Below the pieces are notes generated by a model that saw only the letters and a list, made by a program, of their open reading frames with translations, had not been told where the DNA came from and searched no databases. Of a DNA stretch of 32,243 nucleotides, positions 12,778-32,243 are shown piece after piece; the first letter of the stretch is position 1, and the number at the start of each line of letters is the position of its first letter. The DNA lies in NCBI GenBank assembly GCA_020437805.1, contig JAGQVV010000089.1, positions 1-32,243 on the forward strand. The letters run 5' to 3'. This DNA is from Flavobacteriales bacterium. GTDB taxonomy: Bacteria; Bacteroidota; Bacteroidia; Flavobacteriales_F; PHOS-HE28. Made by a program: the position numbers and the translations under genes.

Positions 12778-15700
12778 TCAGGCCTTCGGCCCGTCAAGCT
12801 TGCGCTTCTTCAATAGATCCAGCACAACAGCACTGGCAACGAAGATCGACGAGTAGGTTCCGACCAGTATCCCCACGAACAAGGCGAAGATGAAGCCTTG
12901 GATGGAGACCCCTCCCAAAAGGAAGATCACGACAAGCACGATCAGGGTTGTCATTCCCGTGTTCAACGTACGGCCCAAGGTCGAGTTGATGGCTTTGTTG
13001 AAGACCACCTCGTTCGAGTCACGTTTGTGGTCCCGGAGGTATTCGCGGATCCGGTCGAATACAACGACGGTATCGTTCACGGAGTACCCGATCACGGTCA
13101 GGATCGCGGCGATGAAGGCTTCATCGATCTCCAGCGAGAACGGCATGATCTTGTACAGCAGTGAGTACAGACCGAGTACGAACAGGGCATCATGCATCAA
13201 AGCGAATAGACTGGCCAAGCCGAACTGCCACCTGCTGAACCGAACGGCAACATATCCAAAAATGAACAACAATGCCAAGGACAAGGCGGTGATCGCCGAG
13301 GTCTTGATGTCATCGCTGATGGTCGCATCCACCTTGCGTGACTCCATCACTTCATAACTCTTGTCCAAGGTGGACAATCCGGCATTCAATCGACCGTCAA
13401 CGATCTCATCCACACCTTCACCGGATTCGTCCATCATGAAGTTCGTGGTGATCTTCATCTGACGGGAGCCACCATAGGTCTTCACGTTCACACCGCTCTG
13501 GACCCCTTCCTCGGAAACGAAATTCGGCTCGAGTGCGTTCCGCACCTCCTCCACTTTCACTTCATCGGCGAACTTGACCACATATGAACGGCCACCGCTG
13601 AAGTCGACACCCCAATTGAAACCATTGGTGACCATGGAGAAGATGCCGACCCCGATCATGATCCCGCTCACTGCGTAGAACACTTTACGCTTGGCCATGA
13701 AATCATAGTTGGCGTTCACGAAGATGTTCCTGCTCCAACCGGTCCAAACTTCCAGGGTCTTGCCTTTCTCCAGACGGCGGGAAATGATCAACCGCGAAAG
13801 GAAGAGCGCGGTGAAAAGGGAGGTGAGGATACCTAGACCAAGGGTCGTTGCGAATCCGCGGATGGGGCCGGAACCGAAGATGTAAAGTATCACGGCCGTG
13901 ATCAAGGTCGTGACGTTCGAGTCGATGATCGCGGAATAGGCCCCTTTGAATCCAAGGTCCACTGCCGACTTGAGCATCTTTCCCGCGCGCAGTTCCTCTC
14001 GGATCCGCTCATAGATGAGCACGTTGGCATCCACCGCCATACCCATGGTGAGCACGATACCTGCGATACCCGGCAGGGTGAGGGCCGCTTGCAGCGAGGC
14101 CAGGGAGCCTATCAGAACGAAGAGGTTCACCAGCAATGCGAGGTCGGCTATCCAACCGGCATTGGCATAATAGAGGATCATGTATACAAGGACCACCAGC
14201 AAGGCCAGCGCGAAAGAGATCATCCCCCACTTGATGTTCTCGCCGCCCAAGGAAGGACCCACGACGGTCTCGTCGATGATGCGGGCCGGCGCCGGCAATG
14301 CGCCAGCCTTCAGAATATTGGCGAGATCATCCGCTTCCTGGATCTGCTTGTTCAGGTCACCCCCACCCATGCTGATGCTGGAACGTCCACCGGCGATCTC
14401 GGAGATGACGGTTGGTGCGCTGTACACCAGTTCGTCCATGACGATCGCCACAGAGCGTCCTACGTTGTCGCCTGTCATCACTTTCCAGGTCTGCGCTCCT
14501 TCAGGATCCATCTGCATGATCACTTCCACATCGCCCTTCATGTCGAAGTCCTGCGCAGCATTAATGATCGAGCTTCCATCGAGCTTGGGCTTGCCCCCCT
14601 TTGGAACCTCCAATGCGAACAAGTTGAGAAGGGCCACGGACCCACCATCCTGCAGTTCGCGTACCTCGGGCTTCGCACCCCAAGCGAGTTTCAGGTCGGC
14701 CGGAAGCATCTTCAGCACCTCCGGCATGGCGAGGTACCGGTTCACTTGAGCAGTATCCGCCAAGCGAGCTGTTCCGACCACGGCACCTTTCGCCAGATTG
14801 AATCCACCGCCTTGGCTTTGTACCAGTGACGGTGTGAGGACCGCGAACAGCGGGTTCTCCTTAGCGAACTCCTCAGGGGTCTGGGTCGCCGCCGCCGTGG
14901 TGTCCGGCTCGACCTTCGTTGTGTCCACTGCGAGCGCCGCAGTATCCACTCCATTGGAGGCCACACGCAGCGCCATTCTGCGATTCTGCGCACGTCCTTC
15001 TTCCGTATCGTTCGATGCCACAGGATGCTGTGGACCGTAGCCTTCGGCATCCAATCGCTCTGCGGCTACACCCCTGGTCACCAATGCCGCCTTCACCGCA
15101 TCCGCCCGTTCCTGGGAAAGCTTGGTGTTCGTCGCTTCATCACCGGTGTTATCCGTGTAACCGCCGATCTTCAACGTAATGTCCGGATAGGCCTTGAGGA
15201 TCTCCACCAAGTTGTTCAATTGTCCATCCGAAGCTGGATCCAGCTCGGCGCTGCCGCTTTCGAAGTTCACACGATCGAAATTGAACCAAGTGGTCTTATC
15301 AGCAGGTTTCCCATCCTCCAGAAAGCCGATCAATCCGCTCTCAACCCCGTTTCCGGCGCCTTTGACCTCAACACCCGAGGTCAGCGTGCGACTGAATTCC
15401 GCCCCATCCTCCAATGATCCATCCTTCACGGCACGAAGGCGCTCGTTGGCGGCTTCCAGGGCCGGGTACACATCCACGTTGTCATAGGTCTCCCAGAACT
15501 CCAGGTTCGCGGTGCTCTGGAGCACCTTGCGAACACGCTCCTTGTCCTTCACACCGGGCAACTCAACTTGGATCCGACCGCTGAATTGTTGCTTCTGGAT
15601 GCTGGGCTGTGCAACACCGAACTTATCGATGCGCGTGCGGAGGATCTTCTCCGTGTTGTTCAAGGCCGTTTCCGCCTCGGTCCGAAGCGCCTTCAGGTAA

Positions 15701-16248
15701 TCGTCGTCGTTTCCCTCGCGGTCGAACATATCCTTGCGCTCGGGGCTGTAGAAGATCGCCGACAATGGCCCATGATCGGGGATCTTCGCATATTCCTCAC
15801 CGAACAGGGTGATGAAGTCGGCATCACTGCTCTTTTGACGTTCGCGTGCATTCGCGATAGCAGCTGTGAAGGCCGGATCCTGACTGTTCTCGCTCAGGTT
15901 CACGATCAGCTCGGGAATGCTCACCTCCAAGGTAACGGCCATACCGCCCTTGAGGTCCAAGCCCAGGTTGATCTCCTTCTCCTTGCACTCGCCGTACGTA
16001 TACCCGAGGAGAGGATAGACCTTCTCTTCATTGCGGGAACGGAGAAAGTCGTTTTCGTACTGGATGATGAGCGCATCGCGGTCCAAGGACTCATCGCCGG
16101 TGGCGGTGATCACCGAGTCGGCCTTGTATGCGGCTTCGACACGTGCCTTCTTCTCCATGCTGGAGGTGAAGAACGAAAAGGACAACTGATAAGCACATGC
16201 CAGCGCCAACAGGATGGTGAAGATCCAGAGCGCGCCTCTATTCTGCAT
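12778..16248 (-). CDS. secDF: Protein translocase SecDF fusion with an OmpA-like domain inserted in the SecD periplasmic loop
   Basis: A 1156-residue inner-membrane protein that uses the proton gradient to pull Sec substrates across the membrane. SecD half: TM1 (about 7-25), the LGLDLKGGMAV motif (95-105), P1 periplasmic domain, and TM2-6 (about 673-826) with GMAVDANVLIYERIREE (736-752). SecF half: TM1 (about 855-873), GVDFSGGRSYVVKF (880-893), and TM2-6 (about 983-1145) with YSVNDTVVVFDRIREY (1055-1070). The fusion order is normal for Bacteroidota, but the length is about 150 residues over what I expect for the family (about 1000). The excess is an OmpA_C domain at about 320-430, followed by a Thr/Ala-rich linker, placed between LEFWETYDNV and KENPLFAVL. 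The ATG at 16248 is chosen because a -7 box lies inside the longer frame that begins at 16323. The frame is intact throughout. Confidence 0.95.
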   Translation of the reverse strand: MQNRGALWIFTILLALACAYQLSFSFFTSSMEKKARVEAAYKADSVITATGDESLDRDALIIQYENDFLRSRNEEKVYPLLGYTYGECKEKEINLGLDLKGGMAVTLEVSIPELIVNLSENSQDPAFTAAIANARERQKSSDADFITLFGEEYAKIPDHGPLSAIFYSPERKDMFDREGNDDDYLKALRTEAETALNNTEKILRTRIDKFGVAQPSIQKQQFSGRIQVELPGVKDKERVRKVLQSTANLEFWETYDNVDVYPALEAANERLRAVKDGSLEDGAEFSRTLTSGVEVKGAGNGVESGLIGFLEDGKPADKTTWFNFDRVNFESGSAELDPASDGQLNNLVEILKAYPDITLKIGGYTDNTGDEATNTKLSQERADAVKAALVTRGVAAERLDAEGYGPQHPVASNDTEEGRAQNRRMALRVASNGVDTAALAVDTTKVEPDTTAAATQTPEEFAKENPLFAVLTPSLVQSQGGGFNLAKGAVVGTARLADTAQVNRYLAMPEVLKMLPADLKLAWGAKPEVRELQDGGSVALLNLFALEVPKGGKPKLDGSSIINAAQDFDMKGDVEVIMQMDPEGAQTWKVMTGDNVGRSVAIVMDELVYSAPTVISEIAGGRSSISMGGGDLNKQIQEADDLANILKAGALPAPARIIDETVVGPSLGGENIKWGMISFALALLVVLVYMILYYANAGWIADLALLVNLFVLIGSLASLQAALTLPGIAGIVLTMGMAVDANVLIYERIREELRAGKMLKSAVDLGFKGAYSAIIDSNVTTLITAVILYIFGSGPIRGFATTLGLGILTSLFTALFLSRLIISRRLEKGKTLEVWTGWSRNIFVNANYDFMAKRKVFYAVSGIMIGVGIFSMVTNGFNWGVDFSGGRSYVVKFADEVKVEEVRNALEPNFVSEEGVQSGVNVKTYGGSRQMKITTNFMMDESGEGVDEIVDGRLNAGLSTLDKSYEVMESRKVDATISDDIKTSAITALSLALLFIFGYVAVRFSRWQFGLASLFALMHDALFVLGLYSLLYKIMPFSLEIDEAFIAAILTVIGYSVNDTVVVFDRIREYLRDHKRDSNEVVFNKAINSTLGRTLNTGMTTLIVLVVIFLLGGVSIQGFIFALFVGILVGTYSSIFVASAVVLDLLKKRKLDGPKA
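14959..15291 (-). other. OmpA-like peptidoglycan-binding domain inside SecD
   Basis: Residues about 320-430 of SecDF. The segment begins WFNFDRVNFESGSAELDP, a typical OmpA_C opening strand and helix. It continues IGGYTDNTGDEATNTKLSQE with Asp366, then Arg381, 15 residues later, the same spacing as the diaminopimelate-binding Asp271/Arg286 pair of A. baumannii OmpA. It closes with EGYGPQHPVASNDTEEGRAQ followed by NRRMALRV, the conserved final strand. All core elements look present, so the domain should fold and bind peptidoglycan; location in the periplasmic loop puts it on the correct side of the membrane. Confidence 0.9.
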
Positions 16249-19884: not shown

Positions 19885-19933
19885 TGGAGCAGGAGGCATC
19901 CTTTTTCCAAGGATCACGTCTTCCCATCGAAAC

Positions 19934-20614
19934 ATGGCCATCATACCTGCTCCAATGATGCGGTCCGGACCCACGACTCCTACGACCGAGCGGAATTCCC
20001 TACGGGTGGTTCCCTTGGTGCTGGACAGCGTTGGCGCGGAAAAGGCGCTGAATACATTGGTCGATGGTTGCTTGCGACAGGACCGCATGGCCCAGGAAAA
20101 GGTCTATGAGTTGTTCTATGGGAAGATGATGGCGGTATGCTTGCGGTATACGAAGAACACTGATCAGGCCAAGGATATCCTACAGGACGGCTTCATCAAG
20201 GTGTTCCGTGGCGTGGACAAGTTCAATCGCGCCGGAAGTTTCGAAGGTTGGGTGCGCCGGATCATGGTGAACACCGCCATCGATCATTTCCGTAGGGCCA
20301 AGAATTCATACCTCCTGTTGGGTGAGGATCGGAGTATCGAGGACTTTGCGGACCATGATGCCGAGGACATCATCGCTGACGAAGAGCAGGATACCCACTT
20401 GGATCTGAAGCCGGCGGACATCATCAATGCCATGCAGAAGCTGACACCGGCCTATCGAACGGTATTCAATCTGTATGTGTTCGAGGAACTTACGCACAAG
20501 GAGATCGCCGACATGTTGGGCATCAACATCGGTACTTCCAAGAGCAACTTGGCCAAAGCCAAACACAATTTGAAGAAGCTGCTCACCAAGGAGCACGGGC
20601 TCCACCAATGGTAA
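19934..20614 (+). CDS. ECF-type RNA polymerase sigma factor (sigma-70 family)
   Basis: A 226-residue protein with sigma region 2 at about 58-125 (VYELFYGKMMAVCLRYTKNT, then DQAKDILQDGFIKVFRGVDKF and the -10-binding segment SFEGWVRRIMVNTAIDHFRR) and region 4 at about 165-218 (LTPAYRTVFNLYVFEELTHK, EIADMLGINIGTSKSNLAKA, a helix-turn-helix for the -35 element). Regions 1.1 and 3 are absent, as in ECF sigma factors. The N-terminus is about 40 residues longer than usual, so a later start is possible; there is no closer ATG with a good ribosome site. The next gene starts six bases after its stop and encodes a membrane protein that may be its regulator. It lacks a neighbouring zinc-finger anti-sigma. 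Confidence 0.9.
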   Translation: MAIIPAPMMRSGPTTPTTERNSLRVVPLVLDSVGAEKALNTLVDGCLRQDRMAQEKVYELFYGKMMAVCLRYTKNTDQAKDILQDGFIKVFRGVDKFNRAGSFEGWVRRIMVNTAIDHFRRAKNSYLLLGEDRSIEDFADHDAEDIIADEEQDTHLDLKPADIINAMQKLTPAYRTVFNLYVFEELTHKEIADMLGINIGTSKSNLAKAKHNLKKLLTKEHGLHQW

Positions 20615-20620
20615 CGCGAC

Positions 20621-21871
20621 ATGGATAGGATGAACGCATTTGAACGCTCGGTAAAGGACTCCTTGGAGCCTTATGAAGTGCCGTACAATTCGGCCGATTG
20701 GGCTCAATTGGAGAAAGCGCTCGATAAGGGGAACGGTTCCGGCCGCGTATCCCGAGCGGGGCTATATGCCTTGCTCTTTGGGGGGGCCACTGCAGCTGCG
20801 ACCAGTTTGTATCTCCTCCTGACCCCCCAGCCTCAGGTGGCCGTGGTCACTGGGCATGCCGAATTGGACGCTTCGATGGAAAGCGCGGTGGAAATGACAA
20901 CGACGACGATGCAAGAGATCAACGGTGCGGAGTCCGCCATGGTGGGCAGCAAGCCCGTTGGCGGTGTGAACGAGGCCGATCCCGGATCGAACGCGACGGG
21001 TGTCAAGGAGATCACGAACGTTAAAGCGGAACGATCGCCTTCGACCGATCCGGACGGGAACGAACCACACCTCCGGCCTGGTGCCAACGCGGGCCCCATC
21101 GTAAAGCCCAGCATAACGGAAGGATGCCCTGGAACGATGATCGATTTTGCCGTGGAGAACGCCCCCGAAGGTGGTATCTACCTCTGGAATTTCGGCGACG
21201 GTAGCTTCTCCAATAAGCCCTCACCCAGCCACGCCTTCTCAAAATCCGGGAATTTCGAGGTGATGTTATCCCATTCCTCCCCCGGTGGTGGCACGATCCA
21301 TAACAAGCCGGCGGCCGATCGCATCATCATCCATGAGGCTCCCGAAGCGGCCTTCAACATGTTGAAGCAGGAATACGACAACACTGTGCCCTCCGTGCAT
21401 TTCGAGAACAGGAGCATGGGAGGACGCACCTACACGTGGGATTTCGGCGACGGTTCCTCCTCCAATGTGGCCCATCCGGACCATGTCTACAAGAAGAAAG
21501 GGGTTTACCAAGTAACACTTACCGTTACGAACGCGAACGGCTGTGTGGACCTGACGGAGCGAACGGTGCGCATCGACAGTGATTACGATCTCCACGCTCC
21601 GAAGACCTTCTCCCCGAACGGAGATGGTGTGGATGATGTATTCATGCCCGAAGCGCTCAAGACCTTGGGTGTGAAGTTCAATCTATCGGTGTTCGAAGCG
21701 GCCACCGGGCAGTTGGTTTACGAGACGACCGACGCTCAACGTCCTTGGAACGGACGCATCAACAATCGCGGGGACCAATGCTCTTCCGGGGATTACGTCT
21801 GGATGGTGGAGATGAAGGACGGTGACAAACTGGGCGGCACCTATAACGGTTCCATCGACCTTATGCGATAG
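20621..21871 (+). CDS. Single-pass membrane protein with two PKD domains and a CHU_C (T9SS type B) C-terminal domain; possible sigma-factor partner
   Basis: A 416-residue protein. N-terminus: about 45 hydrophilic residues (MNAFERSVKDSLEPYEVPYN then DWAQLEKALD), resembling the cytoplasmic start of Bacteroidota membrane proteins that sit beside ECF sigma genes. Residues 46-67 form one transmembrane helix (AGLYALLFGGATAAATSLYLLL) with no obvious cleavage site. A Ser/Thr/Gly-rich linker follows to about 160, then PKD 1 (about 160-240, IYLWNFGDGS), PKD 2 (about 241-318, YTWDFGDGS), and the gliding-motility-associated C-terminal domain (about 325-416, TFSPNGDGVDDVF ... PWNGRINNRG). The gene is six bases after the sigma factor, so the two are surely co-transcribed. 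The start could be the ATG at 20621 or at 20630. A role as an anti-sigma or signal-relay protein is inference from layout; a T9SS substrate with an uncleaved signal is the alternative. Confidence 0.82.
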   Translation: MDRMNAFERSVKDSLEPYEVPYNSADWAQLEKALDKGNGSGRVSRAGLYALLFGGATAAATSLYLLLTPQPQVAVVTGHAELDASMESAVEMTTTTMQEINGAESAMVGSKPVGGVNEADPGSNATGVKEITNVKAERSPSTDPDGNEPHLRPGANAGPIVKPSITEGCPGTMIDFAVENAPEGGIYLWNFGDGSFSNKPSPSHAFSKSGNFEVMLSHSSPGGGTIHNKPAADRIIIHEAPEAAFNMLKQEYDNTVPSVHFENRSMGGRTYTWDFGDGSSSNVAHPDHVYKKKGVYQVTLTVTNANGCVDLTERTVRIDSDYDLHAPKTFSPNGDGVDDVFMPEALKTLGVKFNLSVFEAATGQLVYETTDAQRPWNGRINNRGDQCSSGDYVWMVEMKDGDKLGGTYNGSIDLMR

Positions 21872-21895
21872 GAACCCTTGAAACATGTGTTTTGA

Positions 21896-21928
21896 AGGAC
21901 CCGGGGTTTCCCCGGGTCCTTTATTTTT
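21896..21928 (+). terminator. Intrinsic terminator of the sigma / PKD operon
   Basis: A perfect 11-bp GC-rich stem (arms 21896-21906 and 21910-21920, loop TTT) directly followed by TTATTTTT, the classic rho-independent form, 25 bases after the stop codon. Confidence 0.92.
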
Positions 21929-22035: not shown

Positions 22036-25000
22036 ATGGTGAACCTTCACAAGAATCTGCTCCTCACATCAAGCTTGCTGCTGACCCCGATCATGGCGGT
22101 CAAGGCGCAGCAGTTCAGCATTGCCGCAGGAACCATTACAACGTGCGCCGGGGTATTGGAGGACACAGGTGGGCCGAATGGGGCTTATGGTGACAATGAG
22201 AACTTCACGGTGGTCATTTGTGCGGACAACCCAGGGGATGGCATTTCCTTGAACTGGATCGTTGCAAACCTGAGCACCGCTGGTCCGAACAATAATTTGG
22301 ACAGGATCCGGATCTGGGATGGGGACAATACCGGTGAGACATTCCTAGGGGAATACACAGGTAATGGACTTCAGGGGCTGATCGTTTCGGCCACCACGTT
22401 CAACACCACGGGCTGTCTTACGGTCCAATTCATTTCCAACAACGTTGCTGGTCCGGGCAACTTCGCCGCTTCGATCACCTGTTTCACTCCATGTGAGCGT
22501 CCCATTGCCGTCGCTTCGATGAGCGAAGCCGTACCGGCCTTGGTCTGTGTCGGGGAGAACATTGCCTTCGATGGCACTGCTTCCTATGCCGCTGCCGGGT
22601 TCAACATCGTTTCCTATGAATGGGACTTCGATGATGGTACGACCGCCGGTTCATCGACCGCAACCCACGCGTTCGACGTTCCTGGTGAATACATCGTTCA
22701 GTTGAACCTGATCGACGATAACGATTGTGTGAATGCGAATGTGGTGGACCTTCAAGTGCTGGTGAGCACCACCCCTTCGTTCCAAGGAACGGTGGAGAGC
22801 GTGGAACTATGTCTTGGCGCGACAGTCGACCTTAACGCTGTTGTCACCCCGATCACATGGACCGGCATTCCCGATGCGAATTTCGGCGATGGGGTGTTCC
22901 TCCCGGATGATGTGGGCCAGCCCTTCACCTCCTCGCTCAGTTTCACACAATTCGAGCCGGGGCAAACCTTGACCGATTGCAACGACCTGCTGGATGTGTG
23001 TGTGGAGATGGAACACACGTTCATGGGTGACCTCGTACTTCAGATCACATGTCCGAACGGACAAACGACGATCCTGCACCAGCAAGGTGGAGGCGGCACC
23101 TACCTCGGGTCACCTAATGACGGTGACAGCAACGCGAACCCTATCCCCGGAGAATGTTGGACCTATTGTTGGAGTGAATCTGCCACGAACGGTACTTGGG
23201 TGGACAACTCGAACCAAGGTTCTCAGAATACCACATCGGCGGGCACACCGGCATCGCAGTCGCTCAACCCGGGCACCTATGAGCCGGTCGAAAGCCTTTG
23301 CAACCTTGTCGGCTGCCCGCTGAATGGCGAGTGGACGTACACAAGTACCGACCTCTGGGGAGCCGATAACGGCTTCATCTGCTCATGGTCCATCAATTTC
23401 AATCCTGCGATCATTCCTGATGTGACGCAATTCACACCGGACGTTGGCACGAACTCCTTGGACTCCGCGTTCTGGACCGGCCCGTTCCTGGAACAGGACC
23501 CGAACGACCCCTTGTCCGGAACGGCCACGCCTGACGTGCAAGGTGACTACGCGTACACCTTCTTCGTAACGGACAACTTCGGTTGCGTGTACGATACGAC
23601 CATCACCGTGACGGTCCCGCCCCAGATCACCCTCGACGCAGGTCCGGACCTGGTCCTTTGCACGGACCCGGAACCCATGGCCGGAGTGATCACGGCCAAC
23701 GGACCACCCACGAATTGCCTGTGGGACCTTGTCCTGTTCGATGCGGCTTGGGATTCATGGAACGGTGGCGCCAATCTGGTGGTGAACATCGATGGGGTGA
23801 ACACAACATATACCCTACCCGGGGGAACCAACTCGACCACCTATCCGATCAATGTCCAGAGCGGTCAGACCATCACGCTGACATATACGGCCGGGACCAT
23901 CTGGAACAACGAGAATTCCTTCGATCTGATCAACGACGTCGGTGTCGAGGTCTATTCATCGCCCAATGGTCCGGCCACAGGGGTGCTGTACACCGGTACC
24001 ATGGTTTGCGGTGGTGGAGCTACCCCTTTCTTCTTTGAATGGACACCGACCACGGGCCTGACCGACCCGAACAGTGCCACATCCGATGTGTATGTAACAG
24101 AACCCACGATGTTCTACTTGACGTCCTATCCGGTCGGTTATCCGGAATGTGGGGTGGTGGACAGTGTGCTCGTTAGTCCGGACCCATCCATCGATGCGGG
24201 TATCTCGAACGTGTTGACGATGTGCGCCAGTGACCCCATGATCCTCCTGACGGACTCCCTCGGCGGCACCCCCGACCTGACGGGCATATGGACGATGAGC
24301 GATGGTACGCAGGTCCCGAACCTGTTCGATCCAGCCGTGAGCATTACCGACATCTATACCTATACCGTGACGAGCGCGGCCGGATGCGTGGCCACCGCAT
24401 CCTTGGACATCACGATAATCCCGGCCGACGACCCGACCTGTTGTGGAGTGCCGGATGCTGGCGAACCGATGCTTTCATGTGATCTGACCATTGCACTGAG
24501 CGCCACACCCGGGAACACTGGAGTGGGTGAGTGGCGTGGCCCGACCGGTGCGGTATTCGCGGACCCACTTTCACCGCAGACCACGGTCACCATGCCGACC
24601 GGGGGCGGTGGTAGCCACATGTTCTACTGGGAGGAAAATGATGGGGCCTTCTGTAATACGGTCGATAGCGTGCTGATGACCTTCACGGACGCATTCTTCT
24701 TCACCCCGACGTTGACCGATGCGCTTTGTTTCGGCTATTGCGATGGCGCAGCGGACATTCCTGTTTCGGGTGGTAATTCGATCGCAGGGCTCAATTACGA
24801 ATGGAGCAATGGCGAGATCGGAGTGGACCTCACCATGATCGATGGCCTGTGTGCCGGTGAGCATATGCTCCGAGTGCGCGATGATAACAACTGCACGGAT
24901 TCCCTGATCTTCACCATCTCCGAACCTATCCTACTGGAGATCGACTCAATGGCGACCCAGCCCGTGACCTGTTCCGGTGACTGTGACGGGCAGGTGGAAG

Positions 25001-25698
25001 TCTATGATCCCGAAGCTGTACAGTACAGTTATGATGATGGGGCGAGTTGGAGCGCGGATGCACAGCTTGCCGATGCCTGTGAAGGATTGTACCAGGTACA
25101 GATCCAGGATATGATCGGTTGTATCGGTCGCGGCTCGATCCAAGTGACCGGCCCACCGCCGGTGATCGCTGAATTCACCTGGGGACCTGATCCCGCCAAT
25201 GTGAACGACCCGAACATCCGTTTCGGCAACCTATCATCCGATGCCATTCGCTACTTCTGGAACTTTGACGATCTCGCCACAAGCACCGAGGTGAACCCGA
25301 GCTTCACGTTCAGTGAGAAGGAACCCGGCATCTACGAGGTCTGTTTGGTGGCCTACAATTTCAATGACTGCGCCGATACCATTTGCCACAACGTGATCAT
25401 CGATGACGTGCTGTTCACATACATTCCGAACAGTTTCACGCCGGACGGGGATGGCGTGAACGACTTCTGGGGCATGAGCGCGAACATCGCGGTGATCACC
25501 GACTTCGAGATGCTCGTCTTCGATCGTTGGGGGCAGATCGTCTATTCCACGGAAAACCCGTACAAGCCTTGGTTCGGCAGTTACCAGAACGACGGTGAGA
25601 TCCTGAAGAGCGACGTGTATGCCTACCGGATCACATACGCTATCGAAGGGACGGAAGCCCGGAAGGAGATCCTGGGCCATGTTACCCTGTTGAAGTGA
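22036..25698 (+). CDS. Giant surface protein 1: CUB / PKD / P-domain / Ig-like / SprB-like repeats / CHU_C (T9SS)
   Basis: A 1220-residue secreted protein. Signal peptide MVNLHKNLLLTSSLLLTPIM, cleaved near KAQQ. Domains: CUB-like (about 25-150; NENFTVVICADNPGDGISLN, IRIWDGDNTG, TGCLTVQFISN); PKD (about 155-243; YEWDFDDGTT); proprotein-convertase P-domain-like (about 275-457; EHTFMGDLVLQITCPNGQTT, LNGEWTYTSTDLWGADNGFI); Ig-like (460-530); a GDGW-like beta domain (about 535-660); further Ig-like repeats (about 700-880); two SprB-like repeats (about 885-1040; YEWSNGEIGVDL); PKD (about 1043-1124); CHU_C (1128-1220; YIPNSFTPDGDGVNDFW, VFDRWGQIVY). The last directs T9SS export, so the protein acts outside the cell, perhaps in adhesion or gliding; no catalytic domain is seen. 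In the GDGW-like domain the expected Gly-Asp-Gly-Trp is DAAWDSW. First of three tandem paralogues. Confidence 0.9.
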   Translation: MVNLHKNLLLTSSLLLTPIMAVKAQQFSIAAGTITTCAGVLEDTGGPNGAYGDNENFTVVICADNPGDGISLNWIVANLSTAGPNNNLDRIRIWDGDNTGETFLGEYTGNGLQGLIVSATTFNTTGCLTVQFISNNVAGPGNFAASITCFTPCERPIAVASMSEAVPALVCVGENIAFDGTASYAAAGFNIVSYEWDFDDGTTAGSSTATHAFDVPGEYIVQLNLIDDNDCVNANVVDLQVLVSTTPSFQGTVESVELCLGATVDLNAVVTPITWTGIPDANFGDGVFLPDDVGQPFTSSLSFTQFEPGQTLTDCNDLLDVCVEMEHTFMGDLVLQITCPNGQTTILHQQGGGGTYLGSPNDGDSNANPIPGECWTYCWSESATNGTWVDNSNQGSQNTTSAGTPASQSLNPGTYEPVESLCNLVGCPLNGEWTYTSTDLWGADNGFICSWSINFNPAIIPDVTQFTPDVGTNSLDSAFWTGPFLEQDPNDPLSGTATPDVQGDYAYTFFVTDNFGCVYDTTITVTVPPQITLDAGPDLVLCTDPEPMAGVITANGPPTNCLWDLVLFDAAWDSWNGGANLVVNIDGVNTTYTLPGGTNSTTYPINVQSGQTITLTYTAGTIWNNENSFDLINDVGVEVYSSPNGPATGVLYTGTMVCGGGATPFFFEWTPTTGLTDPNSATSDVYVTEPTMFYLTSYPVGYPECGVVDSVLVSPDPSIDAGISNVLTMCASDPMILLTDSLGGTPDLTGIWTMSDGTQVPNLFDPAVSITDIYTYTVTSAAGCVATASLDITIIPADDPTCCGVPDAGEPMLSCDLTIALSATPGNTGVGEWRGPTGAVFADPLSPQTTVTMPTGGGGSHMFYWEENDGAFCNTVDSVLMTFTDAFFFTPTLTDALCFGYCDGAADIPVSGGNSIAGLNYEWSNGEIGVDLTMIDGLCAGEHMLRVRDDNNCTDSLIFTISEPILLEIDSMATQPVTCSGDCDGQVEVYDPEAVQYSYDDGASWSADAQLADACEGLYQVQIQDMIGCIGRGSIQVTGPPPVIAEFTWGPDPANVNDPNIRFGNLSSDAIRYFWNFDDLATSTEVNPSFTFSEKEPGIYEVCLVAYNFNDCADTICHNVIIDDVLFTYIPNSFTPDGDGVNDFWGMSANIAVITDFEMLVFDRWGQIVYSTENPYKPWFGSYQNDGEILKSDVYAYRITYAIEGTEARKEILGHVTLLK

Positions 25699-25748: not shown

Positions 25749-25865
25749 TGTTTCTGGGACCCTTGTGATCCCGATAGTGGGCGGCGTCGATCTGTGAAGG
25801 AGACCTCGTGAACAACGAAATTCGTGCCGCCAACAGTTGATAGGCAAGCCCAAGGAGCATTTCGA

Positions 25866-28800
25866 ATGGACCGACCGCAATACCTCGATGATCGGCGCAC
25901 TGGACCCATTCGTTCGGTCCTGGTGTCGATAGCATTCCTGCTGTTGGTCGCATCGCCGCTGCGTGCCCAGGTCTTCCCTATAACCGATGGTGCGATCACC
26001 ACTTGCAGCGGTGCACTGGTGGACAGTGGCGGTGAAGGCGGACCAGGCTATGGGAACAACGAGAACATCACCGCGACCGTTTGCCCGGACCAACCTGGAG
26101 AAGGCGTGTCCTTGAACTTCGTTACGTTCAACTTGAGCCCTGTGGGCGGTGCACCGGTGGACAGGATGATCCTGTACGATGGAGCGACCACGGCTGACCC
26201 CATCATCGGCACCTTCACGGGGAACCAACTGCAGGGCCAGGTGGTCTTTGCGTCCCCGACGAACAACTCGGGTTGCATCACGGTACAGTTCATCTCCAAC
26301 GGAGCCGGTACAGGTGCCTTCGCGGCATCGATCACGTGCTACACCCCATGTATTCCTCCCACTGCGATCGCAACTGTGAACGAAAGCGTTCCGGTGCATG
26401 CATGCGTGGGTGAGGTTTTCACCTTCGATGGTAACGGATCATATGCCGCTCCGGGGTTCAGCATCGTTTCCATGGTATGGGACCTCGCGGATGGCAGTAC
26501 GCAAAGCGGCGCAGTGGTGGATCATGCTTTCGCAGCGCCCGGTGCGTACACAGTGCAACTCACGGTAACGGACGACAACGGGTGTACGAACACCAACCTC
26601 GTGGACCTGCAGGTCCTGGTCGGGACAACACCCTTGTTCACTGGGACCGTTGAAAGCATGAGCGTATGCCAAGGTGCCACGGTGGACCTTTCAGGATCGG
26701 CGACCAGTGTGACCTGGAATTCCACCCCGGTAGCGGACTTCGGCGACGGGGTATACCTACCTGATGACGTGGGACAGACCTTTTCGAGCCAGTTACCGTA
26801 CACTTCCTTCGCTCCAGGGGCGGTATTGACCGACATCAACGACCTATTGAGCATTTGTGTTGACGTGGAGCATTCGTTCATCGGCGACCTTGTGATCTCG
26901 ATCGCCTGTCCGAACGGGCAGTCCGTTGTGATGCACCAACAAAATGGTGGCGGTACGGACCTTGGTGTACCGGTAACAGGCGATGAGAACAGCCCGCAAC
27001 CAGGTACGTGTTGGAGCTATTGCTGGAGCCCTGCGGCCACCTTGGGCAATTGGGTGCAGTGTTCCGCAACAGGCGCCACCCCCAATGTGATGAACAATGG
27101 GAATGGTCAATCGCTGATCCCGGCCACATACAGCAGCCTCAACAACCTGAACGGCCTTGTGGGTTGTCCGTTGAACGGGGCATGGACGATCTCCTTCACG
27201 GATCTATGGGGACTGGACAATGGATTCCTCTGCAATTGGTCCATGAACTTCGATCCTGGGCTTTACCCTGATCTGGTCGAATTCACGCCGGTCATCGGCT
27301 CGACCAGCGACTCGATCTTCTGGAGTGGTCCTGGTGTTTCATCCAATGGGTCCGATCCCGGTGAGGCCACCGCAAGTGTCCCTGAACCGGGTAGTTTCGA
27401 ATACCAGTTCAGTGTCACGGACAATTTCGGATGCACATATGACACCACCATCACCATCACGGTCACCCCTGCACCCGTGGTTGACCTGACCAGCACGCCT
27501 GGCGAAAGTTGCACGGATCCGGAGCAGTTGCATGCCGATATCGTGGCCTACCCTCCGCCACTTCTTTCCTGTGACCACACGTTGGTGCTCAACGACTCCT
27601 TCGATGACATCTGGCAAGGTGGGGCCCAAGTCAACGTGGTGATCAATGGTACATCGACAACGTACGCATTGGTGGCTGGCGGAGCCTCGACCTTCACGAT
27701 AGCAGCACCACCCGGAGCCAGCATCGCTTTGGTATATACTGCGGGAACCCAATTCAATGGCGAGAACTCCATGTCCTTCTTCGGCCCCGCCGGGAACCTC
27801 TTGTACAACTCACCGAACGGGCCATTGAGCGGTACTTTGTGGAGCGGCACTTCGAATTGCCCGGGCATGATGGGCCCTGTGACCTACGTGTGGACGCCTG
27901 CTTCTGGGGTCGATGACCTGAGCAGCTCGGACCCGTTGACCACGATCAGCTCCACCACGTTGTTCGAGGTGGTTGTTCACCCGACCGGCCAACCGTGGTG
28001 CAACACCTCGGATACCATCACGGTGGCGCCGCCGTCCTTCCTCGAGAACGACAGCGTTATCACTGAAGTGCTTTGCCACGGTGGTGATGGGAGCATAGAG
28101 GTCCTTACCTCCGGGGCCGGAGGGCCATGGGATTACCGATGGCTTGATGATCAGGGACAAAGCGTACGCAATACCATCGCCACCGTTGGCGATGCCTACA
28201 ATGGACCGGCTGGCACCTACACCGTGATCATCGCAGAGGGTTCCAATGGGAACGGCTGTACGGACACCTTGATGGCAACGATAACGGAACCGGATCCGTT
28301 GATCTGGGTAGGCATGTCGAGTGACACGCTGATCTGCCGTACTGGTACCGCGGTCCTGACCGCAGAGGCCATGGGCGGAACCGCGCCCATCACGTACCAA
28401 TGGTCCGGTGGTCCTGTCGGTATCGGTCCGCACATGGTTTCTCCCATGGTCACCCGCGTTTACACCGTGCAGGCCCTGGATATCAATGGCTGTGTCACAT
28501 CGACCGACACGATCATGGTCGAAGTTCGCGCCGGATTGGGATTCGATGCGCTCACCTCGTTCGATCAATGCAGTGGAGTCCCCTTCAGCTTGGAAGCGGA
28601 CAGTGTGACCGGTGGCGATGGGAACTACACGTTCACATGGAGCAATGGCGCCTCGAGCTCACCCTCGATGGAAACGACGTTGAACGATGATGCCACCATT
28701 TGTGTCACCGTGTCGGATGGATGTGAAACACCGGTCCTCAGTTCCTGTGCCACGATCACCGTCCTTCACTCCCCGCCCATTGTTCTCTCGGTGGATTCGA

Positions 28801-29570
28801 GTTTCGGTTGCGCACCGTTCCAAGTCCACCTGGCGTTGCAGGACACGACCGCTGGAGGAATGATCACTTGGGACTTCGGCGATGGCGTCACCACACCAGG
28901 ACCGGATGTGATCGGCCACATATACCCCGACCCGGGCACGTACGATGTTTCGGCCATAGTGACCTGGCCCAACGGTTGCACGACCGACTCGACCGTGACG
29001 GACATGGTCCAAGCGCTTCATGTGCCAGCACCGGACTTCTCATGGAGCCCGGAGCCGCTCACCATCTTCGAGCCCGTTGCACATTTCCAAGAGCTGGCCG
29101 GTCCGAACGAAGTGAGCTACGAATGGGACTTTTTCGAGTTCGGCACATCCACCGAACCTGATCCTGTCATCACCTTCTTGAGCGATCAAGGCCGGTACTA
29201 TCCGGTGCAGTTGGTGGTGGCCAATGAACTGGGCTGTTCCGATACGATCTTCCGTGAAGTGCATGTTGAAGATGTGTTCCTCACCTATCTCCCGAATGCT
29301 TTCAGTCCGGATGGTGATGGTATCAATGAGCTGTTCTTCGTTCAAGGCAATGACATCTCTTCAGAGGATTTCGAGTTCCTGATCTTCGACCGGTGGGGTA
29401 AGGAGGTGTTCAGTTCCACGGATCGTTACAAGCCGTGGAACGGTCGGAATGGTGGTGGTGATGATGGAGAGGTGCTTCCCCACGGGGTCTATGTGTGGCG
29501 CTTGAAACTGCGTTCTGCCCAGACCTTGCAGAAGCGGATCCTTTCCGGGCACGTTACGCTCTTGCGTTGA
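25866..29570 (+). CDS. Giant surface protein 2: CUB / PKD / P-domain / Ig-like / SprB-like / PKD-PKD / CHU_C (T9SS)
   Basis: A 1234-residue paralogue of the preceding gene. Signal peptide MDRPQYLDDRRTGPIRSVLV then SIAFLLLVASPLRAQ; the long charged n-region makes a later start conceivable, but no closer ATG exists. Domains: CUB-like (about 35-160; IGTFTGNQLQGQV, SGCITVQFISNGAG), PKD (about 165-252; MVWDLADGST), P-domain-like (about 282-463; EHSFIGDLVISIACPNGQSV, TDLWGLDNGFLCNW), Ig-like (465-535), GDGW-like (about 545-665; LNDSFDDIWQGGAQV), SprB-like (about 725-808), Ig-like repeats (about 810-965), two PKD domains (970-1048, 1053-1137; ITWDFGDGVTT), and CHU_C (1138-1234; YLPNAFSPDGDGINELF, IFDRWGKEVF, KPWNGRNGG). 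The N-terminal half is closely similar to surface protein 1, while the repeats after about 700 differ. The in-frame ATG at 25824 gives no signal peptide and is rejected. Confidence 0.9.
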   Translation: MDRPQYLDDRRTGPIRSVLVSIAFLLLVASPLRAQVFPITDGAITTCSGALVDSGGEGGPGYGNNENITATVCPDQPGEGVSLNFVTFNLSPVGGAPVDRMILYDGATTADPIIGTFTGNQLQGQVVFASPTNNSGCITVQFISNGAGTGAFAASITCYTPCIPPTAIATVNESVPVHACVGEVFTFDGNGSYAAPGFSIVSMVWDLADGSTQSGAVVDHAFAAPGAYTVQLTVTDDNGCTNTNLVDLQVLVGTTPLFTGTVESMSVCQGATVDLSGSATSVTWNSTPVADFGDGVYLPDDVGQTFSSQLPYTSFAPGAVLTDINDLLSICVDVEHSFIGDLVISIACPNGQSVVMHQQNGGGTDLGVPVTGDENSPQPGTCWSYCWSPAATLGNWVQCSATGATPNVMNNGNGQSLIPATYSSLNNLNGLVGCPLNGAWTISFTDLWGLDNGFLCNWSMNFDPGLYPDLVEFTPVIGSTSDSIFWSGPGVSSNGSDPGEATASVPEPGSFEYQFSVTDNFGCTYDTTITITVTPAPVVDLTSTPGESCTDPEQLHADIVAYPPPLLSCDHTLVLNDSFDDIWQGGAQVNVVINGTSTTYALVAGGASTFTIAAPPGASIALVYTAGTQFNGENSMSFFGPAGNLLYNSPNGPLSGTLWSGTSNCPGMMGPVTYVWTPASGVDDLSSSDPLTTISSTTLFEVVVHPTGQPWCNTSDTITVAPPSFLENDSVITEVLCHGGDGSIEVLTSGAGGPWDYRWLDDQGQSVRNTIATVGDAYNGPAGTYTVIIAEGSNGNGCTDTLMATITEPDPLIWVGMSSDTLICRTGTAVLTAEAMGGTAPITYQWSGGPVGIGPHMVSPMVTRVYTVQALDINGCVTSTDTIMVEVRAGLGFDALTSFDQCSGVPFSLEADSVTGGDGNYTFTWSNGASSSPSMETTLNDDATICVTVSDGCETPVLSSCATITVLHSPPIVLSVDSSFGCAPFQVHLALQDTTAGGMITWDFGDGVTTPGPDVIGHIYPDPGTYDVSAIVTWPNGCTTDSTVTDMVQALHVPAPDFSWSPEPLTIFEPVAHFQELAGPNEVSYEWDFFEFGTSTEPDPVITFLSDQGRYYPVQLVVANELGCSDTIFREVHVEDVFLTYLPNAFSPDGDGINELFFVQGNDISSEDFEFLIFDRWGKEVFSSTDRYKPWNGRNGGGDDGEVLPHGVYVWRLKLRSAQTLQKRILSGHVTLLR

Positions 29571-29743: not shown

Positions 29744-32243
29744 ATGGCAAGACGATACGCGTGGGTTTCCATGTTGGGCATTAGGACACTGCGGGCAATT
29801 CCATTTGTTCGGGTCATCGGGGTTGGAATGTCTTGTGCATTCCTGCTTTGCCTGTTCGGTGAGGCACAAGGCCAAGCCTTCCCGATCTTCAATGGCACGG
29901 TGAACACATGTGTCGGGGCATTCTTGGACAGTGGTGGCGAGGGTGGTGCCGGATACGGGAACAACGAGAACTTCACGTACACCATTTGTCCGGACAATCC
30001 GAACGATGCGATATCGCTGAATTTCCTCACGTTCCAATTGAGCAACACCGGTCCGGCCCCTGCGGACCAGATGACGATCTATGATGGGAACAGCACGGCG
30101 GCACCAACACTTGGGTCGTACGGCGGTAACGCTCTGGAAGGATACGTTGTCAATGCCTCGCCGCTCAACACTTCAGGTTGCCTCACCGTGGTGTTCCGTT
30201 CCAATGCTGCCGGCGTCGGGATCTTTGCGGCCAGTATCACGTGCTACACGCCATGCCAACGGCCAACGGCCGTTGCGGTCATGAGCGAGGCCGCACCGGC
30301 CATGGTCTGCCCGGATGAAGTGGTCACCTTCAATAGTTCAGGGTCCTTCGCAGCCACAGGGTTCTCCATTGCGAATCGCCGTTGGGAATGGGGAGATGGG
30401 ACTGTGACCGACCCTGCCCCGGTCGTTGCCACCCACGCCTATTCCCAACCAGGCTATTACCAAGCCCAGTTGTACCTGATCGATGATAATGGCTGCGCCA
30501 GCACGAATCGGGTGGACCTTGAAGTGCTCGTAGGAACGGAACCGGACTTCATCGGGACCGGTGGTGATATCCTGGGTTGTGTTGGCGAAGTTCTGTGCCT
30601 GGATGCAGTGGTGAATGCAACCACCTTCAATGAACTTCCTTCCGGCGATCTCGGCAACGGTGTATTCCTTGCGGATGAGGTCGGCTCCTGCTTCAATGCC
30701 GAGATCGAATTCACGCAATTCGACCCGGGACAGACGTTGAACTCCGTCGCTGACCTGTTCTCCATATGCATGAACATGGAGCACTCGTTCATGGGCGATC
30801 TGGTGGTAAGGATCATCAGTCCGACCGGACAAACGGTGACGATGCACCAACAGGGCGGTGGAGGAACGTTCTTGGGGGTGCCGGTGGACAACGATGCCAC
30901 ACCGAACGCGCAGGGAACGTGTTGGCAGTATTGTTTCAGCCCAACGGCCACGAACGGCACTTGGGTGGACAATGCCGGTGGGACATTGCCTGCAGGTACG
31001 TATGAGAGCTTGAACAATTTGAACGGATTGGTCGGTTCCCAATTGAACGGTATTTGGCAATTGCAGATCTGCGACCTATGGGCTTCTGACAATGGGTTCG
31101 TGTGCGATTGGGACATCGACTTCGACCCTGCGCTGTTCCCGGATCTGGTGGAATTCACTCCCGTGTACGGTACGGATTGTGATAGCAGCAGTTGGGCTGG
31201 GCCGAACATCACATCGACCACGGGCGATTGCCAAGGCTTGTGCATGACCCCACCCGGACCCGGTGTTTATCCGTACACCTACACGGTCACTGACAACTTC
31301 GGATGCACGTACGATACCACACTCTCGATCACGGTGATCCCACCTGCCATCATCGACGCTGGTCCTGATGTATCCACCTGCAATACGCCAGTCCAATTGG
31401 ACGCAACGATAACCTCAGGTGGCTTCCCCTCGGATTGTGTTTACCAATTGGTCCTCAATGACTCGTTCGGGGATGGATGGACGGCAGGGTCGAGCATCTC
31501 GGCCACGGTCAATGGCGTTACCACCACGCACACCTTGGGTGCGGGTAGCACCACCACAGTGAACATTCCGGTGAGCCACGGTGCGACGATCATCTTGAAT
31601 TACACCGCGGCGATCCTTTGGAACGGTGAACAGTCCTTCACCTTGAGGAACAGTACGGGAGGGGTCGTATACGCCTCTCCACTCGGTCCGATCAGTGGCA
31701 ACTCTTGGAGCGGAGCTGCGGTATGCCCTACCGGTGGGTTCGTATATAGTTGGAGCCCGGTTGCAGGGCTTTCGGACCCCAACATCGCCAACCCGGTGGC
31801 TACGGTATCCACGACCACCACATATTGTGTCACGGCTTATCAACCGGGCCATCCGGACTGCCCGGCCACGGATTGTGTTACGATCACCGTTGACAATGAT
31901 GTGGACGCCGGAACGAACGGCCTGGTAACGGTATGCGAGAATGCCGCGGCCGTGGACCTCTTCAGTGAGTTGGGCGGGACACCAGAAACTGGTGGCACTT
32001 GGACCGACCCCTCTGCGGCGGCACATTCCGGAAGCTTCATGCCCGGCTCGGATGCCTCCGGGGTATACACCTATACGGTGACGGGTTCCGGTGCCTGTGG
32101 AAGTTCGTCTGCCACCTCCACGGTTACGGTTACGGTAAGTCCTATGGCGAACGCGGGTACCGACGGCAGCATCACTATTTGTAGCACTGATGCTGCCCAA
32201 AGCATGTTCGCCCTATTGGGAGGAACTCCGGATGCAGGCGGCT
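29744..32243 (+). CDS. Giant surface protein 3 (partial, runs off right edge): CUB / PKD / P-domain / Ig-like / GDGW-like
   Basis: The first 833 codons of a third paralogue; the frame is open to the window end, so the C-terminus and any CHU_C domain are not visible. It starts MARRYAWVSMLGIRTLRAIP with a hydrophobic core (VIGVGMSCAFLLCLF) and cleavage near GEAQG. Visible domains: CUB-like (about 44-165; YGNNENFTYTICPDNPNDAI), PKD (about 172-262; RRWEWGDGTVTD), P-domain-like (about 290-465; EHSFMGDLVVRIISPTGQTV, QLQICDLWASDNGFVCDWDI), Ig-like (about 465-545), GDGW-like (about 550-665; VLNDSFGDGWTAGSSISATV, the intact form of the motif), then further Ig-like repeats with SELGGTPETGGTWTDPSAAA-type sequence. 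It has three extra cysteines in the loop after the P-domain (about 31178, 31229 and 31241). An internal ATG at 29771 is an alternative start. Confidence 0.88.
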   Translation, partial: MARRYAWVSMLGIRTLRAIPFVRVIGVGMSCAFLLCLFGEAQGQAFPIFNGTVNTCVGAFLDSGGEGGAGYGNNENFTYTICPDNPNDAISLNFLTFQLSNTGPAPADQMTIYDGNSTAAPTLGSYGGNALEGYVVNASPLNTSGCLTVVFRSNAAGVGIFAASITCYTPCQRPTAVAVMSEAAPAMVCPDEVVTFNSSGSFAATGFSIANRRWEWGDGTVTDPAPVVATHAYSQPGYYQAQLYLIDDNGCASTNRVDLEVLVGTEPDFIGTGGDILGCVGEVLCLDAVVNATTFNELPSGDLGNGVFLADEVGSCFNAEIEFTQFDPGQTLNSVADLFSICMNMEHSFMGDLVVRIISPTGQTVTMHQQGGGGTFLGVPVDNDATPNAQGTCWQYCFSPTATNGTWVDNAGGTLPAGTYESLNNLNGLVGSQLNGIWQLQICDLWASDNGFVCDWDIDFDPALFPDLVEFTPVYGTDCDSSSWAGPNITSTTGDCQGLCMTPPGPGVYPYTYTVTDNFGCTYDTTLSITVIPPAIIDAGPDVSTCNTPVQLDATITSGGFPSDCVYQLVLNDSFGDGWTAGSSISATVNGVTTTHTLGAGSTTTVNIPVSHGATIILNYTAAILWNGEQSFTLRNSTGGVVYASPLGPISGNSWSGAAVCPTGGFVYSWSPVAGLSDPNIANPVATVSTTTTYCVTAYQPGHPDCPATDCVTITVDNDVDAGTNGLVTVCENAAAVDLFSELGGTPETGGTWTDPSAAAHSGSFMPGSDASGVYTYTVTGSGACGSSSATSTVTVTVSPMANAGTDGSITICSTDAAQSMFALLGGTPDAGG

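Follow-up and report, generated by a model that had tools for sequence, protein, structure and literature searches.

Why should a protein that appears to be anchored in the inner membrane end in a sorting domain of the T9SS, and what is it about such a protein that places its gene directly behind that of an ECF sigma factor? The question is raised by a two-gene unit within the window, that is, the whole stretch of 32,243 nucleotides that was analysed, which belongs to a 3.2 Mb draft genome in which the sigma region 4 family is matched 20 times. The features of the unit are collected in Table 1. The sigma factor matches PF04542 at 60 bits and PF08281 at 53.8 bits, both above cut-off, and its protein start, MAIIPAP, is conserved in the genus. 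Exactly six bases separate the sigma TAA from the ATG at 20621, the gap given in the preliminary description, and the sigma and membrane genes share one reading frame. At the 3' end of the unit stands a terminator-like hairpin; the scan found this one hairpin against 2.2 expected in shuffles, and its support lies in its position and stem length only. Because the hairpin stands between them, the giant PKD-CHU_C genes downstream are left out of the operon. These genes form a group of at least three on the forward strand (22036-25698, 25824-29570 and 29744-32243) encoding giant paralogous PKD/P-domain proteins in tandem, with CHU_C ending the first two and the third extending beyond the window. 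On the reverse strand of the window, positions 12781-16236 encode a SecDF fusion in which an OmpA-family domain (PF00691, residues 325-419, 76.9 bits) has been inserted so that it separates the P1 head from the first part of P1.

Table 1. Features of the sigma factor/membrane protein unit (positions in the window; residues of the membrane protein)
Feature	Position	Strand	Basis
ECF-type promoter GGCATCCTTT-N12-CGTCT, 12 bases before the sigma ATG	19895..19921	+	Conserved upstream of sigma across the genus
ECF sigma factor gene, 226 aa	19934..20614	+	PF04542, PF08281 and TIGR02937 over cut-off
Candidate anti-sigma factor, 416 aa, single-pass	20621..21871	+	Domains, orthologues, alignment, AlphaFold2
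36-residue cytoplasmic sigma-clamp module, core residues 6-37	20636..20731	+	Profile, sigma linkage, co-fold helices
Transmembrane helix, residues 45-67	20753..20821	+	AlphaFold2 helix; hydrophobic segment after module in relatives
Linker, residues 71-158, disordered, unconserved	20831..21094	+	15% identity in genus; low pLDDT
Two PKD domains, residues 160-318	21098..21574	+	PF18911; alignment; PKD folds
CHU_C (T9SS type B) domain, residues 325-416	21593..21868	+	PF13585
Terminator-like hairpin, 14-pair stem and T tail, 3' end of two-gene unit	21893..21923	+	

The membrane protein combines a part without any Pfam match, its N-terminus, with parts that are easily recognised. The two PKD domains described earlier were recovered by PF18911 at 91 bits, and PF13585 recognises CHU_C (45 bits, cut-off 27). 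With TIGR04131, a stricter model for T9SS type B, the score of 33.7 bits falls just short of the cut-off of 35, so the sorting function may have been lost. When the protein was modelled alone, AlphaFold2 placed helices at residues 6-15, 24-36 and 45-67, disorder at 76-130 and beta domains from residue 160, and a Foldseek search with this model returned PKD and adhesin folds, none of the matches listed being a solved type B CTD. The long conserved N-terminus ahead of the helix suggests that the latter is an uncleaved membrane anchor. Residues 1-45 contain neither Cys nor His, which upholds the earlier observation that no standard zinc-finger anti-sigma is present and rules out by sequence the zinc form of the class I anti-sigma domain (ASDI; Hx3Cx2C, about 100 aa). 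Two cysteines are found further along, one per PKD domain, C169 at the start of PKD1 and C308 at the end of PKD2; both are invariant in all 46 aligned sequences, and a disulfide between the two domains is conceivable.

How widely is this arrangement conserved? When 98 genomes were searched with the whole membrane protein, nearly every genome of the same genus had an orthologue of full length, 45-68% identical, and such orthologues also appeared in other families at about 26-32%; many further genomes among the 98 matched only via PKD/CHU_C. Orthologues of the sigma/membrane pair occur in six or more families outside the genus, and wherever a full-length locus was read, the membrane gene came immediately after the orthologous sigma gene, with both on one strand. 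Identity to the window (genus / other families, as fractions) is 0.63 / 0.35 for residues 1-45, 0.37 / 0.19 for the helix region, 0.15 / 0.08 for the linker, 0.70 / 0.27 for PKD1 and 0.71 / 0.31 for PKD2, such that beyond the genus the N-terminal 45 residues rank highest in conservation among these five parts. The distances of sigma and module correlate (r 0.69), a correlation that common descent would also explain.

The core of the N-terminus is a conserved module at residues 6-37 with the pattern FExxxKxSLExYEVPYNSADWxxLExxL. A profile of the first ~40 residues (A1, 21 rows), in which F7, E19 and W27 are invariant, was searched against 396 Bacteroidia genomes with no use of sigma genes, and 170 of them gave a match (E up to 0.01). 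Loci were read for most of these matches down to about E 3e-5, with weaker matches left out, giving 117 loci, or 111 distinct ones after the removal of six duplicates. Without exception, these 111 have an ECF sigma gene of the same orientation whose stop codon lies close to the module, which begins between -20 and +214 bases from it. Almost every relative has a hydrophobic segment after the module, and the protein usually contains no other. The preliminary description had staked its reading on the membrane gene remaining linked to sigma genes in relatives and on the N-terminus being conserved, and both expectations were borne out. The module itself has no covering family among the relatives' matches listed, and a search of PDB sequences with its profile returned de novo TIM barrels only and no natural protein, CnrY included. 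A second module in the same genome is weak (E 0.18) and comes after another ECF sigma gene (G000:C145); its protein, of 562 aa, matches a barrel family at 21.8 bits, under the cut-off of 27, and has relatives in 38 of the 44 genus genomes, many of which match in the C-terminal half only. Elsewhere the module occurs in tandem, in two to five copies (L127:1047-2960, L129:922-2874, L112:1796-2824, L122:1157-3127 and others), with the copies mostly ahead of the membrane segment and an outer-membrane barrel often present.

This distribution bears on the most economical view of the locus, namely that a gene for a T9SS cargo merely sits in a sigma operon and that its N-terminus is an unusual signal peptide. 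Such a view would suit the PKD-CHU_C architecture, which is the usual make-up of secreted cargo, and the presence of at least three giant PKD genes downstream in the window, yet it appears very improbable against a module that ranks among the most conserved parts of the protein, that is joined to unrelated C-termini and that comes after a sigma gene in every locus read, with a terminator-like hairpin standing between the pair and the cargo genes.

What, then, does the module do? The suggestion that the N-terminal 45 or so residues hold the sigma factor finds support in the conserved module, in its sigma linkage at every locus read and in a predicted structure. For the latter, sigma residues 30-226 and module residues 1-45 were co-folded as one chain, with the TAA read as Gly and a three-residue linker, from an alignment of 109 rows, of which 22 were fused and the others were unpaired sigma or module rows. 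The model has a pLDDT of 86 and a pTM of 0.82, bearing in mind that the short linker itself forces the module near sigma. Within the module, pLDDT reaches 94-96 at residues 11-30, with 76 at residues 1-10 and 85 at residues 31-40; the core had 82 in the membrane protein alone as against 94-96 in the co-fold, the alignments differing between the two jobs. The clamp is formed by two confident helices, residues 1-15 and 24-36, and thus corresponds by prediction to the two-helix sigma-binding part of a class II (CnrY-like) anti-sigma factor. Both domains of the modelled sigma resemble those of anti-sigma-bound SigW (5wuq; Z 13.4, 158 aligned, 5.5 A) and of anti-sigma-bound CnrH (4cxf; Z 11.4, 149 aligned, 5.8 A), whereas ECF sigmas bound to RNA polymerase align over both domains only at an rmsd of about 26 A. 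In the CnrH/CnrY pair, CnrY likewise uses two short cytoplasmic helices with no four-helix ASDI (PMC7406223) and sigma is closed in a manner similar to that modelled here, but CnrY and the module have no sequence similarity detectable by the PDB sequence search.

The closest known kind of protein is that of the Dma dual-membrane-spanning anti-sigmas, in which a disordered tether joins a sigma-binding N-terminus and transmembrane helix to a barrel at the C-terminus, and which adjoin ECF21 sigmas (PMC13088901). The present protein shares with them the ECF sigma next door, the N-terminal sigma-binding part (predicted here), the one transmembrane helix, the long disordered tether and a C-terminus that would lie on the far side of the envelope, but ends in PKD-PKD-CHU_C rather than in a barrel; because the barrel is absent, it is a variant of the Dma kind by layout and not a member. 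The Phocaeicola vulgatus pair M0N98_03761/03760 and the B. fragilis pair compared with it also join an ECF sigma to an anti-sigma predicted to span the periplasm (PMC9308784), that of P. vulgatus differing from the present protein by its outer-membrane barrel end. Linkage and co-fold leave the sign of regulation undefined, and the membrane protein might, in principle, recruit or stabilise sigma instead of inhibiting it. This is improbable, as the modelled sigma is closed, like inhibited SigW and CnrH, and deletion of the analogous dma2 in B. thetaiotaomicron switches its sigma on, an effect that depends on the neighbouring ECF21 sigma factor (PMC13088901). The membrane protein is very likely to be an anti-sigma factor, one that would inhibit its neighbour.

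The C-terminus is the more difficult part to understand. Following the module and helix, relatives carry PKD-PKD-CHU_C, an outer-membrane barrel (in some cases PorP/SprF) or a short uncharacterised tail. Among the 55 relatives of 365-474 aa, PKD_4 and CHU_C were each found in 39 and OMP_b-brl_2 in three, while the 17 long or multi-copy relatives contain OMP_b-brl_2 in 10 and PorP_SprF in five; relatives of 209-330 aa (n=18) gave no informative family matches. Short relatives of the A3 group (e.g. L104:1655-2404) have the same module together with a conserved C-terminal PxFGDMIDSxKGI and no informative Pfam match. Co-occurrence with the T9SS was assessed through SprA (TIGR04189), which is matched in 385 of the 396 sampled genomes and is too common to discriminate; one pair-bearing draft genome, G101, has no SprA match. 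The paradox of a sorting domain on an anchored protein is reduced because Dma anti-sigmas end in barrels and because the same N-terminal module is itself fused to barrels.

Does the C-terminus then make contact with the outer membrane? The prospect that it does is put at a little under even. Docking of CHU_C on a PorP/SprF-like barrel is the best guess, because PorP-like barrels are the binding partners of type B CTD proteins (PMC9143113) and because the N-terminal module is found fused to PorP/SprF. The same two observations, and the retention of a recognisable CHU_C in 39 of 55 relatives of similar size, tell against a purely periplasmic sensor, in which the PKD and CHU_C domains would act as Ig-like ligand or redox sensors that touch neither the outer membrane nor the T9SS. 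Such a sensor is nonetheless a serious contender, if a less than probable one, since CHU_C is degenerate against TIGR04131 and the invariant cysteines of the two PKD domains would allow for redox chemistry of a conceivable kind, a disulfide between them. The earlier proposal that the sorting domain senses T9SS or outer-membrane status is plausible, although sensing of the T9SS is rather less likely than not. Such sensing would make of the protein a split trans-envelope anti-sigma, whose type B CTD docks on a PorP/SprF-like carrier so that the clamp is pulled or let go according to carrier occupancy or T9SS traffic, and secretion status is relayed directly to the ECF sigma, a scheme that is offered equally tentatively. 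A T9SS CTD protein that influences an ECF sigma has a precedent in P. gingivalis, where PorA acts through PorXY-SigP (PMC7712824), but PorA is located at the cell surface and acts via a two-component system, whereas the present CTD sits on the candidate anti-sigma itself.

The promoter of the unit provides a separate view of its regulation. The divergent -7 boxes proposed earlier were not confirmed, the one descriptive detail of the preliminary account that did not hold, and an ECF-type promoter was found instead; self-regulation, which the boxes had been taken to allow, is supported by the conservation of this promoter ahead of the sigma gene. The promoter is the sole match to its pattern in the genome at up to 1 mismatch, and amid otherwise diverged sequence the upstream regions in the genus have AGGCATCCTTTT and, after a spacer, GCGTCT in common. 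In distant families, an element resembling GCAACC-TTT-CGTC precedes 22 of 90 sigma genes (shuffle mean 2.4, maximum 8). A scan for housekeeping promoters around the operon, one that does not cover the Bacteroidota -33/-7 boxes, found nothing. The exact core, GGCATCC-N15-CGTCT, has 65 sites in the 44 genus genomes as compared with 19 for the reversed pattern: 21 lie ahead of the sigma gene, each in a different genome, 12 ahead of the gene for a ~260-aa protein and 5 ahead of that for an NAD epimerase, with the others, about 27, being close in number to the 19 sites of the reversed pattern.

Only two exact cores occur in the genome itself, those of the sigma operon and of the ~260-aa protein gene (G000:C285). 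The latter protein has a signal-peptide-like start, a C-terminal Phe as in outer-membrane barrels and no Pfam match, features that make it a probable outer-membrane protein. Target families were chosen from promoter matches, and the evidence for them is thus recurrence in orthologues and not the first match. For instance, the 16 close orthologues of the C285 gene have the exact core in 12 cases, a 16-base spacer in two and one mismatch in two. The NAD epimerase, first noticed among the promoter matches, was set aside as a target; 8 of its 17 orthologues carry the motif with no more than 2 mismatches. In a third family, a secreted 262-aa protein (G000:C137), 3 of 30 relatives carry it within that limit of 2 mismatches where about 0.5 would be expected from shuffles, which is no more than suggestive.

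These strands can be drawn together in an account that is, as a whole, probable: an autoregulated sigma/anti-sigma pair with a trans-envelope clamp, outer-membrane docking and release. Linkage, conservation, domains, promoter and the core at a second gene were computed and the structure of the clamp predicted; the inhibition of sigma, the topology, the docking partner, the signal and the way in which sigma is released are inferred. At rest, the protein, anchored in the inner membrane, would use its two-helix clamp (residues 6-37) to keep sigma closed and off RNA polymerase. Outside the inner membrane, the flexible linker of about 90 residues, the two PKD domains and CHU_C could reach the outer membrane, where CHU_C would most likely dock on a PorP/SprF-like barrel or other envelope partner. 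A change in this contact, or damage to the envelope, would lead to the release of sigma, probably by proteolysis of the anti-sigma, and the freed sigma would transcribe the operon that encodes it together with a few surface genes, including that of the probable outer-membrane protein.

Among the ECF sigma factors of Bacteroidetes, just 6% have a class I anti-sigma domain encoded in the vicinity (PMC7406223), which leaves most of them with no known regulator. The 36-residue module, Pfam-less as it is, represents an easily tested candidate for many of these regulators, and could supply a good number of the anti-sigma factors that seem to be missing in the Bacteroidia. Should the form with CHU_C prove to be a sensor of the outer membrane or the T9SS, secretion status would have a direct route to transcription.
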